From Azonexaceae bacterium (GTDB lineage Bacteria > Pseudomonadota > Gammaproteobacteria > Burkholderiales > Rhodocyclaceae), in the NCBI GenBank assembly GCA_009469665.1, contig SSTB01000195.1:1-7212 (forward strand): a DNA stretch of 7,212 nucleotides. Direction: 5' to 3'. Below are positions 1 to 4,892 of the stretch, in pieces; positions within the stretch are counted from its first letter, which is position 1; each line of letters begins with the position of its first letter. The notes below the pieces were generated by a model. It was not told where the DNA came from and made no database searches. It saw only the letters and a list, made by a program, of their open reading frames with translations. Position numbers and translations under genes: made by a program.

Positions 1-317
1 ACAGCCTTGGAGTTCTCGTCGTAGCCGTAGCCCTGCCAGGGTTCCGGGGTGAACACGGCGAGGTACTTCAGGATGCGCATGGACGGAATGCCATACACGA
101 TGATCTGGCCCGACTGGCCCCCGGAGCTGAACACCACGAACTCATCGCGCTTGCCGGTCGGAACGTAGGTCTTGGCCGCGGCCAGCAGATCCTGCTGGCT
201 CAGGTTGCGACGCTTCATCACGTCCTGCAGCGACTCGGCGGACCACGCTGAGGCGGCGCCGAATCCGAGGCCGGCTGCGACCAGCAGCGCGGTGGATTTC
301 ACTGCAAATTTTCTCAT
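1..317 (-). CDS. nosZ: Nitrous oxide reductase NosZ, clade II (Sec-type), N-terminal 105 residues, cut by window edge
   Basis: NosZ reduces N2O to N2 in the periplasm with CuA and CuZ copper centres. Only the first 105 codons are present; the rest runs off the left edge. Residues 1-24 or 1-27 form a signal peptide (basic MRKF start, hydrophobic core 9-22, likely cleavage after ASA or WSA). There is no twin-arginine motif; the RR at 36-37 lies after the signal peptide. The mature start matches my memory of clade II (atypical, Sec-exported) NosZ: LLAAAKTYVPTGKRDE (44-59), FSSGGQSGQ (63-71), SMRILKY (79-85) and FTPEPWQGYGY (89-99). The copper-ligand histidines lie outside the window. The ATG at 317 has GGGAG (complement of 326-330) eight bases upstream. 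It is divergent from a copper-chaperone operon. The family call is strong; the clade call rests on the signal peptide and N-terminal motifs. Confidence 0.93.
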   Translation of the reverse strand, partial: MRKFAVKSTALLVAAGLGFGAASAWSAESLQDVMKRRNLSQQDLLAAAKTYVPTGKRDEFVVFSSGGQSGQIIVYGIPSMRILKYLAVFTPEPWQGYGYDENSKA

Positions 318-389
318 CTCGATATCTCCCATTTAATCAAGGGTTTGTAGACCTTCTTCCCTCCATTGGCACAGCATCCACAGTCCACT

Positions 390-404
390 GCGACAATTTG
401 CCGC
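390..404. promoter_or_regulatory. RegA/RegR-like box upstream of nosZ
   Basis: GCGACAATTTGCCGC is an inverted repeat of the form GCGNC-N5-GNCGC. It fits the RegR/RegA consensus as I remember it (GNGRCRTTNNGNCGC) with one mismatch. The flanks extend it to TGCGAC...GCCGCA (389-405), and the 17-mer recurs with one change at 4196-4212, beside regB. It would span about -4 to +11 of the nosZ start predicted from the neighbouring FNR-like box, which suggests repression or modulation there. It lies near -86 of the copper operon on the other side. Binding by RegA is inference. Confidence 0.55.
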
Positions 405-406
405 AC

Positions 407-412
407 ACTGTA
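407..412 (-). promoter_or_regulatory. Predicted -10 hexamer of nosZ promoter
   Basis: The minus strand reads TACAGT, 4 of 6 to TATAAT. It sits exactly at -12 to -7 if the FNR-like box at 435-448 is centred at -41.5, giving a start near 400 and a leader of about 82 bases before the nosZ ATG. No good -35 hexamer is needed at a class II FNR-dependent promoter. Confidence 0.4.
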
Positions 413-434
413 TGCCGCTGAGGCTGTGAAAAAA

Positions 435-448
435 TTGACGCGCATTAA
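435..448. promoter_or_regulatory. FNR/Dnr/Anr-like box between nosZ and copper operon
   Basis: TTGAC-GCGC-ATTAA matches TTGAT-N4-ATCAA at 8 of 10 conserved positions, with one mismatch in each half. It lies between two divergent operons expected to be induced by low oxygen or nitrogen oxides. Its centre (441.5) is 41.5 bases from the predicted starts on both sides, near 400 toward nosZ and near 483 toward the copper operon. Whether FNR, Anr or a Dnr/Nnr-type NO regulator would bind cannot be told from the box. Confidence 0.55.
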
Positions 449-469
449 GTTTTCGCGGCCTCCTTGCCG

Positions 470-475
470 CAGAAT
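470..475 (+). promoter_or_regulatory. Possible -10 hexamer of the copper-chaperone operon
   Basis: CAGAAT (4 of 6 to TATAAT) lies within one base of the class II spacing from the FNR-like box at 435-448. It predicts a start near 482-483 and a leader of about 28 bases before the TTG at 511. The match is weak and is supported mainly by position. Confidence 0.3.
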
Positions 476-510
476 CGCTTCCCGTTTCTCCTACTGGCGC
501 GAGTTTCGTC

Positions 511-978
511 TTGAATAAGAAGATGCTGATCGACGCGATCGGCCTGCTCCTCATGGCCTTGATTGTCGTGGTCGGGTACAAGCTTTCGCCGCTTCTTTTG
601 CCCAAGGCGGATGTCACGGCGACGCCGGACCCCGCCTGCGATCTGCACCGCAATCCGTGCGCTGCGGCCCTTCCCGGAGGGGGGCGGGTGGAGTTGTCAC
701 TTGCTCCGCGGCCCATTCCCATGATCAAACCCCTGCGGGTCGAGGTGGTCGTCCAGGGTCGTGGAGTCTCTACCGCCGAGGTCGATTTTGCCGGGGTGTC
801 CATGAACATGGGACTCAACCGCCCCCGGCTGGCCGCAGGGGAAGAAGGGCGCTTTTCCGGGGAGGCGACCTTGCCCGTGTGCGTGACGGGAACCATGGAC
901 TGGCAAGCTACCGTCCTGCTCGAAACTGAGCGGGAGCGTATTGCCATACCGTTCCGTTTCGGATCTCAGCCGAGGTAG
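511..978 (+). CDS. Membrane-anchored periplasmic protein of unknown function, Sco/PCu(A)C-associated
   Basis: A 155-residue protein with one N-terminal membrane segment (about 6-30) and a soluble periplasmic domain. Visible features are a Cys pair (C43, C50, spacing CX6C), a Met pair in SMNMGLNRPRL (97-107), and C124 in LPVCVTG followed by M129. The beta-rich pattern with a Met pair resembles FixH/YtkA-type periplasmic domains linked to metal or oxidase assembly, and I recall similar proteins beside sco genes in betaproteobacteria. Copper binding by the Cys and Met residues is inference. No reaction can be assigned. The start is uncertain: TTG at 511 has only a weak upstream GCGAG, while the in-frame ATG at 523 has a purine run with no spacer. 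The stop is three bases before the sco1 start, so it is the first gene of that operon. Confidence 0.82.
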   Translation: MNKKMLIDAIGLLLMALIVVVGYKLSPLLLPKADVTATPDPACDLHRNPCAAALPGGGRVELSLAPRPIPMIKPLRVEVVVQGRGVSTAEVDFAGVSMNMGLNRPRLAAGEEGRFSGEATLPVCVTGTMDWQATVLLETERERIAIPFRFGSQPR

Positions 979-981
979 AGG

Positions 982-1578
982 GTGTCCCTGCGCGTCCTGC
1001 AAATCATCGCCGCTCTGCTTGCCGCTGCCGTCATCGGCCTGGCGCTGTTCTGGCACCCGGAGCCGGTGCCGCGGGCCTTGCCGCGCGCGCCGGAGCCCGC
1101 GGGGGGCGATTTCACCTTGGCCTCCGCGGATGGGCCGGTGAGCCTCTCCGCCATGCGCGGGAAGGTTGTCCTGATCTATTTCGGCTATACCTACTGTCCC
1201 GACATTTGCCCGACTGCGTTGGCGGCCGTGTCTGATGCCTTGGAACGGCTCAGCCGCGAGGAATTGGCGCGGGTCAGCGTGCTATTCGTTTCCGTCGACC
1301 CGGCCAGGGATACGGTGGGCCACCTCAAGGAATACGCGGCCTTTTTCCATCCGGCCATCCTTGGCGTAACCGGCAGCGAGGCCCAGATCACCGAGATCGC
1401 CGCCCGCTATGGTGTCTATTACGCCCGCCAGCCGGAGGCGTCCGGCGGCGGCTACGCCGTCGATCACAGCTCAGACTTGCACCTGATCGCGCCGGAGGGC
1501 CGCCCCGCCGGTCGCTTGCCCCACGGCGCCGGTCCCGACCAGATCGTGGCGGAAATCCGCCGCCTGCTGGAGTACTGA
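982..1578 (+). CDS. sco1: SCO1/SenC family copper chaperone, membrane-anchored
   Basis: A 198-residue thioredoxin-fold protein that binds copper in the periplasm and helps metallate CuA sites, classically of cytochrome c oxidase. An N-terminal membrane anchor spans about 5-24, followed by a Pro-rich linker. The copper-binding CPDICP motif gives C72 and C76, and the third ligand is H162 in VDHSSDLHL; all three are present, so it should be functional. VDPARDT (105-111) is the usual SCO strand motif. Length is typical. It starts with GTG at 982, three bases after the upstream stop, with GAGG at 972-975. In Rhodobacter the homologue SenC lies next to regA, and here it is separated from regBA by only one gene and a palindrome. 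With nosZ divergent, NosZ CuA is a plausible client, but an oxidase encoded elsewhere is equally possible. Confidence 0.95.
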   Translation: MSLRVLQIIAALLAAAVIGLALFWHPEPVPRALPRAPEPAGGDFTLASADGPVSLSAMRGKVVLIYFGYTYCPDICPTALAAVSDALERLSREELARVSVLFVSVDPARDTVGHLKEYAAFFHPAILGVTGSEAQITEIAARYGVYYARQPEASGGGYAVDHSSDLHLIAPEGRPAGRLPHGAGPDQIVAEIRRLLEY

Positions 1579-1609
1579 TTTTCACCATCCCGATCGAGAG
1601 GAAGTCACC

Positions 1610-2077
1610 ATGTTGAAGAAGATTTGCCTGTTGGCCGCCCTGGCCACCGCCATCCCCGCCTGGGCCGGCTCCGCCGACGAGGTATCGGTCGAAGGCCCCT
1701 ATGTCCGCATGGCGCCCCCGGGGGCGCCCGCGACGGCCGCATTCATGGTGCTCAGGAATTCCGGCGGCAAGGCGGCTCGTCTGGTCAAGGTCGACAACCG
1801 CGTTGCCAAGATCACCGAATTGCACAACCACCTCAACGACGGCGGTGTGATGCGCATGCGGCAGGTCAAGGCCATCGAGATCCCCGCCAAGGGTGAGGTG
1901 AGTCTGGCGCCGGGAGGTCTGCACGTGATGCTCATCGATCTCAAGGCGCCCCTCACGGAGGGGGCCAGCGTGCCGCTCACCCTGGGATTCGACGATGGCA
2001 GCAGCAAGACCGTCGACGCCAAGGTCGTGCGCCCTGGAGCCGCCGCCCAGGAACATCAGCACGGCCACCATCACTGA
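1610..2077 (+). CDS. Periplasmic copper chaperone PCu(A)C with His-rich C-terminus
   Basis: A 155-residue exported protein of the PCu(A)C family (DUF461), which hands Cu(I) to Sco proteins and CuA sites in the periplasm. The signal peptide is about 1-19 with AWA cleavage. The family copper motif is present: H72 (with H74) in ELHNHL, M83 in VMRMR, then 21 residues to H105 and M107 in GLHVM. The spacing from the first His to the first Met is one shorter than the textbook HMX10M. The tail HQHGHHH (149-155) is an extra probable metal site, seen in many family members. The ATG at 1610 has AGAGGAAG a short distance upstream. It lies 31 bases after sco1, third gene of the operon. Known names include pcuC and pccA. 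Confidence 0.95.
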   Translation: MLKKICLLAALATAIPAWAGSADEVSVEGPYVRMAPPGAPATAAFMVLRNSGGKAARLVKVDNRVAKITELHNHLNDGGVMRMRQVKAIEIPAKGEVSLAPGGLHVMLIDLKAPLTEGASVPLTLGFDDGSSKTVDAKVVRPGAAAQEHQHGHHH

Positions 2078-2175
2078 TCCTAGAAACCTCGGTTGACCGC
2101 TTGTCAGTCCCTGGAAAGCCTTGTGCCTTGAACCTCCGGGCACCTTCGCGACGCTCACCCGTCGGGTCCATCGCT

Positions 2176-2293
2176 ACGAGCCCGTTGGCGCATCCGGGCG
2201 GGCGCCTGGCTTTGTCGCTCCTCCTCGCAGGCATGTGCCTGCCGCGTCGTCGCTTGGCGCCAGACACCCGCCCGAACGCACTAACGGGCTCGT
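2176..2293. repeat. 118-base imperfect palindrome (possible dispersed repeat or structured RNA)
   Basis: Two 35-base arms (2176-2210 and 2259-2293) pair almost end to end. The outer 11 bases, ACGAGCCCGTT against AACGGGCTCGT, are perfect. An inner GCAGGCA/TGCCTGC palindrome (2227-2242) caps the structure. Of the six imperfect positions in the arms, five become G-U pairs if the minus strand is transcribed and only one does on the plus strand. So the better folding RNA is read in the direction of regBA. It lies between the convergent ends of the PCu(A)C gene and regA. It has no credible gene and no IS-like terminal repeats or transposase. It could be an intergenic repeat family member, a 3' RNA structure or a bidirectional transcription block. 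Confidence 0.6.
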
Positions 2294-2330
2294 CCAACTG
2301 AGGTTGCTAGGCCGATTGACCCACGCGAAA

Positions 2331-2347
2331 GGGGCGGGGTACGCCCC
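2331..2347 (-). terminator. Probable terminator hairpin of regBA
   Basis: Sixteen bases beyond the regA stop, the minus strand reads GGGGCG-TACCC-CGCCCC followed by TTTCGCG: a six-pair all-GC stem with a short loop and only three T residues. The stem is strong but the T tract is poor, so termination may be partial or Rho-assisted. Confidence 0.4.
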
Positions 2348-2362
2348 GATGCCCTCAGGGCG

Positions 2363-2896
2363 TCAGTGTTTCACGGGGCGTTTGGCCAGTTTGCGCTGCA
2401 AGGTGCGCCGGTGCATCTTCAGGGCGCGGGCCGTGGCGGAAATATTGCCGTCGTTTTCGTGCAGGACGCGCTGAATGTGCTCCCACTCCAGTCGGTCCAC
2501 CGAGAGGGGCTCGTCGGAGGGGATGCAATCGATATCCGGCGTCTCGGCATCGGCGAAGGCTGCCAGGATCGCCTCCAGTTCAACCGGCTTGGCCAGGTAC
2601 TGCACGGCCCCCAGCTTGATGGCGTCGACCGCCGTGGTGATGCTGGCATAGCCGGTCAGGACCACGATGCGGCATTCGGGGTTGAGCGCGAGAAGTTGTG
2701 GAATGAGGGCCAGGCCGGAACTGCCCCCCAAGTTGAGGTCGAGGACTACCCGTTGCGGTGGCGCGGCCAAGGCCTGGGCCAACGCATCCTCTGGCGTGGT
2801 CGCGCCGCGGGCGGCGAGATCGCGACGCTGCAGGGCACGCACGAGTACGCTATTGAAGGTGGAGTCATCGTCGATGACGAGGATGGAGTCTTTCAT
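2363..2896 (-). CDS. regA: Redox response regulator RegA/PrrA/ActR family
   Basis: A 177-residue two-domain response regulator, the DNA-binding partner of RegB. The receiver domain (1-120) has acidic D9-D11, phosphoacceptor D53 in VVLDLNLG, T81 and K103 in YLAKP. The C-terminal Fis-type helix-turn-helix (about 133-173) includes ISATARALKMHRR and the family hallmark HRRTLQRKLAKR. Length matches the family (about 180). Such regulators globally control aerobic and anaerobic respiration, cytochromes, denitrification and carbon or nitrogen fixation according to redox state. Its ATG overlaps the regB stop as ATGA, so the two are translationally coupled. RegA-like boxes lie upstream of its own operon and of nosZ, suggesting autoregulation and direct control of neighbours. 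In pseudomonads the equivalent is called RoxR. Confidence 0.95.
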   Translation of the reverse strand: MKDSILVIDDDSTFNSVLVRALQRRDLAARGATTPEDALAQALAAPPQRVVLDLNLGGSSGLALIPQLLALNPECRIVVLTGYASITTAVDAIKLGAVQYLAKPVELEAILAAFADAETPDIDCIPSDEPLSVDRLEWEHIQRVLHENDGNISATARALKMHRRTLQRKLAKRPVKH

Positions 2897-4149
2897 GGCG
2901 GGGCGAGGGGAAGTTCCAGGCGGGCGATGGCTCCGCCAGCGGGGTCATTGCTCAGCGCGAGGGTGCCGCCGCGCCTTTCGATGGCTGAGCGGGCCAGCAG
3001 GAGCCCGATGCCGCTGCCGCCGGCGTGGGCGGGGAAAGCCCGCTGTCCGCCTTCCGCGAGGACGTTCGGCGGGAAGCCGGGGCCGTGGTCACGGATAGCC
3101 ACCACGAGCCTTTCGGCACTCCAGGAAACAAGGATTTCGACAGGTTGCGGCGATGTGTTGGCAGCGTTGTTGAGCAGGTTGATCACTGCCTGGCCCAGGG
3201 TGGGGTCGGCAACGATGTCGGGAGGAGGGTGGGGACCGCTGGCGGTGAACCCGTGGCGGGCATCGGGGCGTAGTTCCTCCCAGCGGGTCATGATGCCGGC
3301 GAGCCACTGATCGACGGGCCGTGGGGCTGCGGCGTCCAGTCTTTCGGCGCCGGCGCGCCGCGACAGCCCGGTGATGATGTCCTTGCAGACGCTGATCTGC
3401 CGACGCAGGAGGGTCACGTCGTCGTGCAGGGCGCCGGGCAAATTGGCATCCCGGGCGAGTTCCCCCGCCACGACCGCCATGGTCGCCAGGGGGGTGCCCA
3501 GTTCGTGGGCTGCGCCCGCGGCGAGGGCGCCCAGGGCGACCAGACGTTCGTCGCGCAGGGCCGCTTCCCGAGCGGCGGCGAGCGCAGCGTCGCGCTGCCG
3601 GATGAGGGCGCTCAGGCGCACCACGAACCATGCGATCATCCCCGACGACACGGCGAAGGTGATCCACATGCCTCCAAGGTGAAGGCGGGTCGCCCGCTCG
3701 CCGTCGGCCAGGGGCAGGGGAAGGTAGACCCCCATGAGCAGGGAATAGAGTGCGATGGCCAGGGCGCCGGTAGTGAGCACCCAGGCGGTCGGTAGAGCGA
3801 GGGCGGCGATGGCGACCGGCGGCAGCAGCAGGGAAACCAGGGGGTTGGTGGCGCCGCCGCTGAAGAAGACGAGCGCGCCCAGCGTACCGAGATCCAGCCA
3901 GAGCTGCAGGGCGAACTCGCTCGCCGTGACGCGAGCGCCGCGGCCGAGGCGGACCAGGGTGATGCCGTTCTGCGCCGCCGCGATGGCGATCAGCAACAGC
4001 ATGGGGAGGAGGGGCAGCGGAACGCCCAGAAGGGGGTCGGTCACCACCACCAGCACGGCCATGACACCCAGTACCAGCCAGCGGGCCGCACACAGCCGGC
4101 GCAGGCTTGCGGACAGCGTGTCGGCGTCGGGGGCGGGCGTGGCGACCAT
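2893..4149 (-). CDS. regB: Redox sensor histidine kinase RegB/PrrB family
   Basis: A membrane kinase of 418 residues from the ATG at 4149. About six hydrophobic segments span residues 23-178. The quinone-site motif GGxxNPF appears as GGATNPL (98-104), with Leu in place of Phe. The H-box is GAAHELGTPL with H215, and the redox-active Cys is C255 in ISVCKDIITGLS. The kinase domain has the N-box NLLNNAANTS, the G1 box RDHGPGF and the G2 box GSGIGLLLA. RegB phosphorylates RegA when the respiratory chain is reduced and is held off by oxidised quinone and by thiol oxidation. The start is uncertain: the ATG lacks a Shine-Dalgarno sequence, and in-frame TTG codons exist at 4176 (with GGGG just upstream) and 4203. 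A -10-like GATAAT would place transcription start on the ATG itself. It is coupled to regA and divergent from the cytochrome gene. Confidence 0.94.
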   Translation of the reverse strand: MVATPAPDADTLSASLRRLCAARWLVLGVMAVLVVVTDPLLGVPLPLLPMLLLIAIAAAQNGITLVRLGRGARVTASEFALQLWLDLGTLGALVFFSGGATNPLVSLLLPPVAIAALALPTAWVLTTGALAIALYSLLMGVYLPLPLADGERATRLHLGGMWITFAVSSGMIAWFVVRLSALIRQRDAALAAAREAALRDERLVALGALAAGAAHELGTPLATMAVVAGELARDANLPGALHDDVTLLRRQISVCKDIITGLSRRAGAERLDAAAPRPVDQWLAGIMTRWEELRPDARHGFTASGPHPPPDIVADPTLGQAVINLLNNAANTSPQPVEILVSWSAERLVVAIRDHGPGFPPNVLAEGGQRAFPAHAGGSGIGLLLARSAIERRGGTLALSNDPAGGAIARLELPLAPP

Positions 4150-4155
4150 GGCCGG

Positions 4156-4161
4156 ATTATC
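4156..4161 (-). promoter_or_regulatory. Candidate -10 hexamer of regBA promoter
   Basis: The minus strand reads GATAAT, 5 of 6 to TATAAT. With a standard six-base discriminator, transcription would begin at 4149, the A of the regB ATG, giving a leaderless mRNA. This would explain the missing ribosome site. There is no good -35 at 17 bases upstream (GGGAAA). Confidence 0.38.
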
Positions 4162-4162
4162 G

Positions 4163-4176
4163 GTGATATGGGTCAA
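4163..4176. promoter_or_regulatory. FNR/Dnr-like box between regB and cytochrome c4
   Basis: GTGAT-ATGG-GTCAA matches TTGAT-N4-ATCAA at 8 of 10 conserved positions. Its centre (4169.5) is 41.5 bases before a cytochrome start at 4211 predicted by the -10-like GACAAT (4199-4204), the class II activation spacing. Toward regB it would sit at about -20.5, where binding would be expected to repress. Confidence 0.5.
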
Positions 4177-4196
4177 TTTTTCCCCGCAACCCCCGT

Positions 4197-4211
4197 GCGA
4201 CAATTCGCCGC
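4197..4211. promoter_or_regulatory. RegA/RegR-like box at the cytochrome c4 / regB control region
   Basis: GCGACAATTCGCCGC has the same GCGNC-N5-GNCGC form as the box at 390-404. The extended 17-mers (4196-4212 and 389-405) differ at one base. It spans about -14 to +1 of the predicted cytochrome start and is centred near -55 of regB, a suitable place for autoactivation of regBA. Binding is inference. Confidence 0.52.
4199..4204 (+). promoter_or_regulatory. Predicted -10 hexamer of cytochrome c4 promoter
   Basis: GACAAT (4 of 6 to TATAAT) lies at exactly -12 to -7 if the FNR-like box at 4163-4176 is centred at -41.5, giving a start at 4211 and a 25-base leader. It lies inside the RegA-like box, so RegA and polymerase would compete for it. 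Confidence 0.38.
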
Positions 4212-4224
4212 ATCGATTTTCTTC

Positions 4225-4228: not shown

Positions 4229-4235
4229 CTTGCCG

Positions 4236-4892
4236 ATGTCTGCCTTCCGTTTTCTTCCCTTGCTCCTTGTGCTGGCCGCCGGGTCGGCGGTCGCGGCGGA
4301 CCTCGAGAAAGGCAGGGAAATCAACGGCACCTGCGCGGCCTGTCACGGGGAGTTCGGTCAAGGGGGCAAGAAGGGCGAGTATCCGCGCATCGCGGGCCAG
4401 CGGGCCGGCTACATCATGGACCAATTGAAGAGCTTTCGTTCCCGTACCCGGGTGAACATTCCCATGTTTCCCTATACCCAGGAAAGAGAATTGCCAGACG
4501 AGGACATTCGCGACGTGGCGGAATACCTGGCCGCCATCGAATTGCCGACCAGGATGCCCACCTTCAAGGGGGACGAAGACGCCCTGACCCGCCTGCAGAT
4601 GGTGGACAAAGTGATGATCATTCCCCGCTCTGAAGGGGATATCGAGAACGGCGGAGCGGTGTACCAGAAGCTCTGTGTCACCTGCCATGCCAAGACTGGT
4701 CTGGGGCGCGGCAAATTTCCCATGCTGGTGGGGCAATACACCAATTACCTCAAGCGTCAGATCGACGCCTACGTGAAGGGCGAGCGTCCCCACGACGAGG
4801 AAGGCAAGGGCGGTGTTCTCAACACCTTGAAGGAAAAGGACATCCAGGACGTGCTTGCCTATCTCACCACCTTGCAGGGGCCGAGCGAATGA
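4236..4892 (+). CDS. Diheme cytochrome c4-like electron carrier
   Basis: A 218-residue periplasmic cytochrome c with two class I domains, an internal duplication typical of cytochrome c4. The signal peptide is 1-21 (cleavage after AVAA). Heme 1 attaches at CAACH (33-37) with M77 in NIPMFPYTQ as the likely axial Met. Heme 2 attaches at CVTCH (147-151). The second domain keeps the end pattern KEKDIQDVLAYLTTL, but no Met lies in the usual place before it; M163 in KFPML and H186 in RPHDEE are the nearest candidate ligands. Family members pass electrons from the bc1 complex to oxidases or anaerobic reductases. A role as donor to NosZ or a cbb3-type oxidase is possible but unproven. It is divergent from regB under a shared control region and overlaps the next gene as ATGA. 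Confidence 0.92.
   Translation: MSAFRFLPLLLVLAAGSAVAADLEKGREINGTCAACHGEFGQGGKKGEYPRIAGQRAGYIMDQLKSFRSRTRVNIPMFPYTQERELPDEDIRDVAEYLAAIELPTRMPTFKGDEDALTRLQMVDKVMIIPRSEGDIENGGAVYQKLCVTCHAKTGLGRGKFPMLVGQYTNYLKRQIDAYVKGERPHDEEGKGGVLNTLKEKDIQDVLAYLTTLQGPSE

Follow-up and report, generated by a model that had tools for sequence, protein, structure and literature searches.

Results

Two control regions flank regB/regA

The window analysed here is a stretch of 7,212 nucleotides (contig SSTB01000195.1, assembly GCA_009469665.1) from an Azonexaceae bacterium, in which the genes of a RegB/RegA-type two-component system lie between two divergent control regions, one ahead of the nitrous-oxide reductase gene nosZ and the other between regB and a cytochrome gene. 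The window edge truncates nosZ (3-332, minus strand), so that its first 110 residues are present; they belong to a clade II, Sec-type reductase (NCBIfam TIGR04246, E = 3e-27, residues 52-109). Divergent from it, a plus-strand operon consists of hypA (511-978), a conserved protein gene adjoining nosZ at the same location in relatives, followed by genes for an SCO1/SenC copper chaperone (982-1578; PF02630, E = 3e-41) and a PCu(A)C copper chaperone (1610-2077; PF04314, E = 5e-39). The response regulator gene regA (2363-2896; NF033791, E = 4.5e-51, 173 bits) and the sensor kinase gene regB (2893-4149; NF033792, E = 6e-75, 253 bits) are on the minus strand. Divergent from regB, on the plus strand, is a gene for a dihaem, c4-like cytochrome c (4236-4892; cytochrome c domains PF00034 and PF13442), with an ATG in frame at 4236 and a listed start of TTG at 4230.

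Each control region holds one FNR-type box and one RegA-type box. On the nosZ side these are TTGACGCGCATTAA at 435-448 and TGCGACAATTTGCCGCA at 389-405, and on the cytochrome side GTGATATGGGTCAA at 4163-4176 and TGCGACAATTCGCCGCA at 4196-4212, with distances between the FNR and RegA centres of 44.5 and 34.5, respectively. An earlier note on this sequence had given the box positions and both distances correctly; the palindromes extend further than it described, to 17 bp. With up to three mismatches, the palindrome TGCGRCAAWTYGYCGCA occurs in the window at these two places only, which share 16 of their 17 bases, and its four matches over both strands compare with a shuffle mean of 0.36 (four were reached in 1 of 200 shuffles). 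The FNR-like boxes, with two mismatches each, are by themselves within chance, the window holding 15 sites at three mismatches or fewer against a shuffle mean of 10.5.

Class II FNR- and CRP-dependent promoters are defined by an activator box at -41.5. In the window, the -10-like hexamers TACAGT facing nosZ (407-412, minus strand) and GACAAT facing the cytochrome (4199-4204, plus strand) each lie 32 bp from the centre of their FNR box, which therefore sits at -41.5 of either predicted start, the class II distance that the earlier note had proposed. For the RegA box, the centre falls at about +3 relative to the predicted start of nosZ and at -7 of the cytochrome start, where the box contains the -10 hexamer itself; the predicted placement of the box over the core promoter held at both. 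A strict two-hexamer sigma-70 scan of the window returned no promoter, as is expected of activator-dependent promoters. On the side of regB, the hexamer GATAAT (4156-4161, minus strand) ends 6 nt upstream of the ATG, and the regB message is therefore predicted to be leaderless. Relative to regB, the positions are about -20 for the FNR box and about -55 for the RegA box.

The module is conserved ahead of nosZ in many family members

We examined a family sample of 199 genomes, in which nosZ was located with TIGR04246 and TIGR04244. Upstream regions were taken from alignment-predicted starts, and matches without an N-terminal match or with less than 150 bp upstream were dropped. Merging near-identical regions and including earlier loci gave 137 regions, 78 of clade II and 59 of clade I, in which the best boxes were picked by simple matching to a consensus derived from the same data. 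A RegA box matching at least 15 of 17 positions was found in 65 of the 78 clade II and 38 of the 59 clade I regions, compared with 2 of 2740 shuffled regions; together with the window shuffles, this control rules out a chance origin of the RegA boxes. Among these 103 boxed regions, 56 of clade II and 37 of clade I also had an FNR box (at least 7/10, 20-75 bp upstream), which shuffled upstream halves yielded in 458 of 5150 cases.

The distance between the two boxes was similarly constrained. In clade II it was 44.5 in 40/56 regions (43.5-45.5 in 45/56), in clade I it was 47.5-49.5 in 30/37, and the remaining distances ranged from 36.5 to 67.5. The earlier note had placed both factors on the same helix face, which fits 34.5 and 44.5 and fails for clade I nosZ; one common face of the helix is therefore not required, and a helix-phasing rule is rejected. 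A second RegA-type site (at least 14/17, within 40 bp) was present in 32 of the 103 boxed regions, at a spacing of 16-17 bp in nearly all, and mostly lay further into the transcribed region (e.g. L241, L302, L305, L143, L348). Five regions with apparent distances of 60.5-61.5 (L241, L270, L306, L322, L325) were rejected as spacing exceptions, since the measurement had been made to the second box of such a tandem pair, the first lying at 43.5-45.5.

For both clades of nosZ, sequence logos display T-A-x-A-x-T at a distance of 32 bp from the centre of the FNR box. In clade II, 39 of 56 regions have xAxxxT exactly 22 nt from the box, and the sum over gaps of 21-23 is 52; the count is 27 for a gap of 24, via adjacent conserved bases, and 6 for a gap of 17. 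On the opposite side of the FNR box the same pattern is found at gaps of 21-23 in 45/56 regions, against counts of 0-4 for every remaining gap between 17 and 26. In the window the corresponding hexamer is CAGAAT (470-475, plus strand), 21 nt beyond the FNR box, which would place the box at about -41 of the copper-chaperone operon. A single FNR box thus appears to serve both nosZ and hypA-SCO1-PCuAC, a class II arrangement that goes beyond the earlier note. The RegA box begins 1 nt past the -10 in clade II and 5 nt past it in clade I, where its centre is at +7 of the predicted start, so that the two clades differ by about 4 bp.

A strict pattern, TCAA-N15..35-RegA box, gave 43 matches in 38 of the 199 genomes and none in a reversed control. 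One place, in G069, was counted twice; the 42 distinct places comprised 33 ahead of nosZ, 3 ahead of the cytochrome, 3 that run into a contig end before any nosZ is seen, and 3 others (L231, L234, G143:C37), and some of these nosZ genes were soon interrupted by a contig end (e.g. L227, G013). The pattern preceded clade II nosZ in both named Accumulibacter genomes tried and was not found in either of the two Azoarcus genomes tried. In a class-level set it was present in 8 of 369 genomes, G001 among them, the pattern itself having been built from the source family. The module also accompanies nosZ genes remote from regB (e.g. L107, L120, L212). Of the local regulon suggested earlier, the shared regulon is therefore retained and its strictly local character is rejected.

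The regB/cytochrome control region in relatives

RegB relatives with 55-61% identity are from Dechloromonas, Azonexus and other metagenome-assembled genomes, and the gene block around them is largely conserved. The regB upstream set comprised 74 loci (the window, 13 and a further 60), in 28 of which the cytochrome gene is divergent from regB. Both boxes were found at a distance of 33.5-35.5 in 22 of these 28; in the other six (L158, L160, L173, L174, L176, L184) one box is absent or elsewhere. One locus that has lost the cytochrome (L003) retains both boxes at 34.5, and among the remaining loci without the cytochrome none has an FNR box at 33.5-35.5. Even so, some of these loci retain a RegA-type box near regB (e.g. 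L002, L155, L157, L161, L167 and L169). Conservation of the boxes and of their spacing in related genomes had been set beforehand as the test of the two-box module; it was found at the cytochrome and at both clades of nosZ, and this decisive support confirms the module at the level of sequence.

The regB ATG follows a CATAAT/GATAAT-type hexamer by 6-9 nt in 50 of the 74 loci (by 6 nt in 24, the window included), and 48 of these 50 have a RegA box (at least 14/17) beyond that hexamer. The distance from the RegA centre to the regB -10 was 43.5-46.5 in 26 loci (45.5 in 17), 48.5-50.5 in 9, 55.5 in 3, 60.5 in 1 and more than 100 in 9.

The box and the RegA gene occur together

The same genomes were searched for RegA in six frames, which gave bimodal scores, and the gene was counted as present from E 1e-30 downwards. 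nosZ had been scored in 110 of the genomes: 79 had both RegA and the box, 1 had RegA without the box, 5 had the box without RegA and 25 had neither. The box was thus found in 79/80 RegA genomes versus 5/30 RegA-less genomes (Fisher p about 1e-18, not corrected for kinship), with 104 of the 110 genomes concordant. In a NosZ tree built from few columns, with 110 of the 137 rows (at least 90 residues each), the 15 rows lacking both RegA and the box fall in several places, requiring 8 changes of which 5 are forced by well-supported branches; these rows therefore do not form a single lineage. Two named genomes without RegA and without the box are those of Azoarcus indigens and Azoarcus sp. TTM-91 (G142, G173). 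Because the box and the gene go together in this way, RegA very probably reads the palindrome.

RegA consists of a receiver and a Fis-type helix-turn-helix domain (PF00072, PF02954), the latter almost invariant in 73 sequences. Its residues 4-176 match 3rqi, and residues 126-174 match the PrrA domain 1umq. In RegB, Cys255 and the GG and NP of the GG..NP motif are each at least 95% conserved in 74 sequences; the roles of the redox cysteine after the H-box and of the quinone-associated GG..NP motif are known from Rhodobacter work. RegA and RegB scored 173 of 250 and 253 of 350 bits against the NCBIfam equivalog cut-offs, with the RegA and RegB models still the top matches, so that kinship with these families is shown and equivalence by that standard is not. 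RegA sites have half-sites of the GNGRC-N5-GNCGC type. The box is of this type and goes with the RegA gene, as a predicted RegA binding site should. Its half-site TGCGAC is also listed in the RegR table of PMC4064962.

Discussion

A probable two-input promoter with RegA as a brake

The boxes, spacings, -10 positions and the link between the box and the RegA gene come directly from computation, and on this basis we consider it rather probable that FNR switches nosZ and the cytochrome on, and that RegA occludes their core promoters and activates its own genes. Each control region would then be a two-input promoter. Under anoxia, an FNR-type activator at -41.5 would turn on nosZ and the c4-like cytochrome, and from the same nosZ-side box would also drive the divergent copper-chaperone operon. 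RegA, encoded between the two regions, would occupy the 17-bp palindrome on the core and compete with RNA polymerase, acting as a redox brake that keeps nosZ and the cytochrome low despite active FNR. The cytochrome-side RegA box also lies at an activator-like position for regB, a further point beyond the earlier note, and could double as an activator site there, and the FNR box near -20 would block regB. From these positions, the two regulators would push the divergent pair in opposite ways. Binding, the direction of RegA action and the choice of FNR rather than DNR as activator are what we infer here, an FNR-type box being unable to separate FNR from DNR or NnrR.

Confidence in RegA as a brake on nosZ and the cytochrome is moderate, because published relatives of RegA activate nos genes in two genera and repress them in a third. 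In support of a brake, the RegA of R. capsulatus is a repressor of nosZ, nosR and further nos genes (PMC5359404). Several observations weigh against it and its companion claims. First, RegA/RegR regulates nos genes positively in B. pseudomallei (PMC8191878) and in Bradyrhizobium, where RegR binds the nosR promoter (PMC4064962). Second, the -55 position is not universal, since in nine regB loci over 100 bp separate the RegA box from the regB -10. Third, the box occurs without a RegA match in five genomes (G040, G066, G089, G096, G127), one of which, G089, has a RegB fragment. Finally, eight nosZ genes in RegA genomes are box-less (clade II in G032, G093, G124, G181, G186 and G210; clade I in G060 and G147); apart from G147, the genomes of these eight genes (seven cases) each have the box at another of their nosZ copies.

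The most serious alternative, which we nevertheless consider rather unlikely, is that RegA sits at the start region together with FNR as a co-activator needed for full anoxic expression of nosZ and the cytochrome, for example by bending DNA or opening the promoter. It would agree with B. pseudomallei, where RegA and FNR are each strongly positive for nosZ, and with Bradyrhizobium, where positively acting RegR binds the nosR and norC promoters (PMC8191878; PMC4064962). The RegA site is also spaced more tightly from the -10 and the FNR box than a roadblock requires. The position of the box argues the other way, since it encloses the cytochrome -10 and begins only 1 nt (clade II) or 5 nt (clade I) past that of nosZ, and its offset of about 4 bp between the clades is not a helix turn. 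Nor are the -10 and FNR matches weaker with a RegA box than without (for the clade I -10, 4.3/6, n = 36, versus 3.7/6, n = 18), a weak point as the two groups were searched differently.

It is improbable that the RegA box instead serves the divergent gene, through regB autoregulation or control of hypA-SCO1-PCuAC, and overlaps the nosZ and cytochrome cores merely because the intergenic regions are short. Loci that have lost the cytochrome and keep a RegA-type box 48.5-50.5 from the regB -10 (L002, L155, L157, L161, L163, L164, L167, L169) fit such a role, as does the box kept ahead of hypA in L002, which has no nosZ at this place. Around nosZ, however, the constant feature is how far the box lies from the -10 and from the FNR box. 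Where a clade I nosZ is the neighbour, 105-128 bp separate the RegA box from the regB -10 (L201-L203, L207, L210), and yet it lies over the nosZ core; nosZ copies remote from regB have also kept it. That some protein other than RegA binds the palindrome is very improbable: RegA sites of other genera are described as degenerate or without a strong consensus, but the box stands at regB itself, has a half-site known from the RegR table and is concordant with RegA in nearly all genomes scored.

Beyond occlusion of individual cores, we tentatively propose, as possible rather than probable, that RegB/RegA has been wired separately onto the cores of Sec-type clade II nosZ, twin-arginine translocation (TAT)-type clade I nosZ and the c4-like cytochrome as a general quinone-redox veto on FNR-driven nitrous oxide respiration. 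In this proposal regB, with its predicted leaderless message, and the cytochrome would form a mutually exclusive toggle, FNR turning the cytochrome on and regB off and RegA doing the reverse.

Relation to known systems

The module shares with class II FNR/CRP promoters the box at -41.5, the -10 at 32 bp and the lack of a two-hexamer sigma-70 promoter, and differs in that one box apparently serves a divergent pair of promoters, one of which has a RegA site on its core. At regB-senC-regA type loci, the RegB/RegA genes are found near an SCO1/SenC copper chaperone gene. This proximity is shared here; what differs is that the pair is flanked by nosZ with its copper-chaperone operon and by the c4-like cytochrome. 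The FNR regulon described for Candidatus Accumulibacter, relatives of the same kind, includes an FNR-like motif ahead of the nos operon and includes cytochrome c4, and binding sites for RegAB and other extra regulators are stated there as not yet identified (PMC6446978). What differs here is the RegA-type site on the nosZ core, present in the two named Accumulibacter genomes as well as in relatives. Control of nosZ or nosR by a RegA-family regulator is likewise shared with Bradyrhizobium, B. pseudomallei and R. capsulatus (PMC4064962; PMC8191878; PMC5359404). In the accessible parts of those papers, however, its sign varies by species, the half-site spacing is variable in Bradyrhizobium and no fixed FNR-RegA spacing is given.

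No single RegA consensus could be obtained from the literature as far as it was accessible, and a search of it found no earlier report of a RegA site on the nosZ promoter of the source family. Within those sources, the RegA operator appears to be new, as do its fixed core position, its occurrence at clade I and clade II nosZ alike and its association with the RegA gene. Many members of the family, which is common in wastewater and sediment, have retained the module, and this makes the control of nitrous oxide removal, and so of a strong greenhouse gas, directly testable in such cells.

Other features of the window and related genomes

RegA boxes without the FNR spacing also lie ahead of TonB-dependent receptor genes (L102, L105, L108, L111, L116, L119), three of which (L105, L108, L116) match the copper-receptor model TIGR01778 weakly (77-82 bits; cut-off 472). 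Metal uptake could belong to the RegA regulon through these receptors. Two clade II nosZ genes within about 4-8 kb of one another occur in G031, G035, G041, G092 and G100, and in several of these pairs the FNR box or its distance differs. The product of hypA, a common neighbour of nosZ within the family, had no match in Pfam or NCBIfam. Beside the cytochrome gene is a small uncharacterised plus-strand gene, followed at the right end of the window by sugar-nucleotide genes, named by sequence alone. The N-terminus of NosZ (3-332) is 99% identical to that of G024 (L240) and RegB only about 60%, which hints that nosZ and regB have had separate histories.

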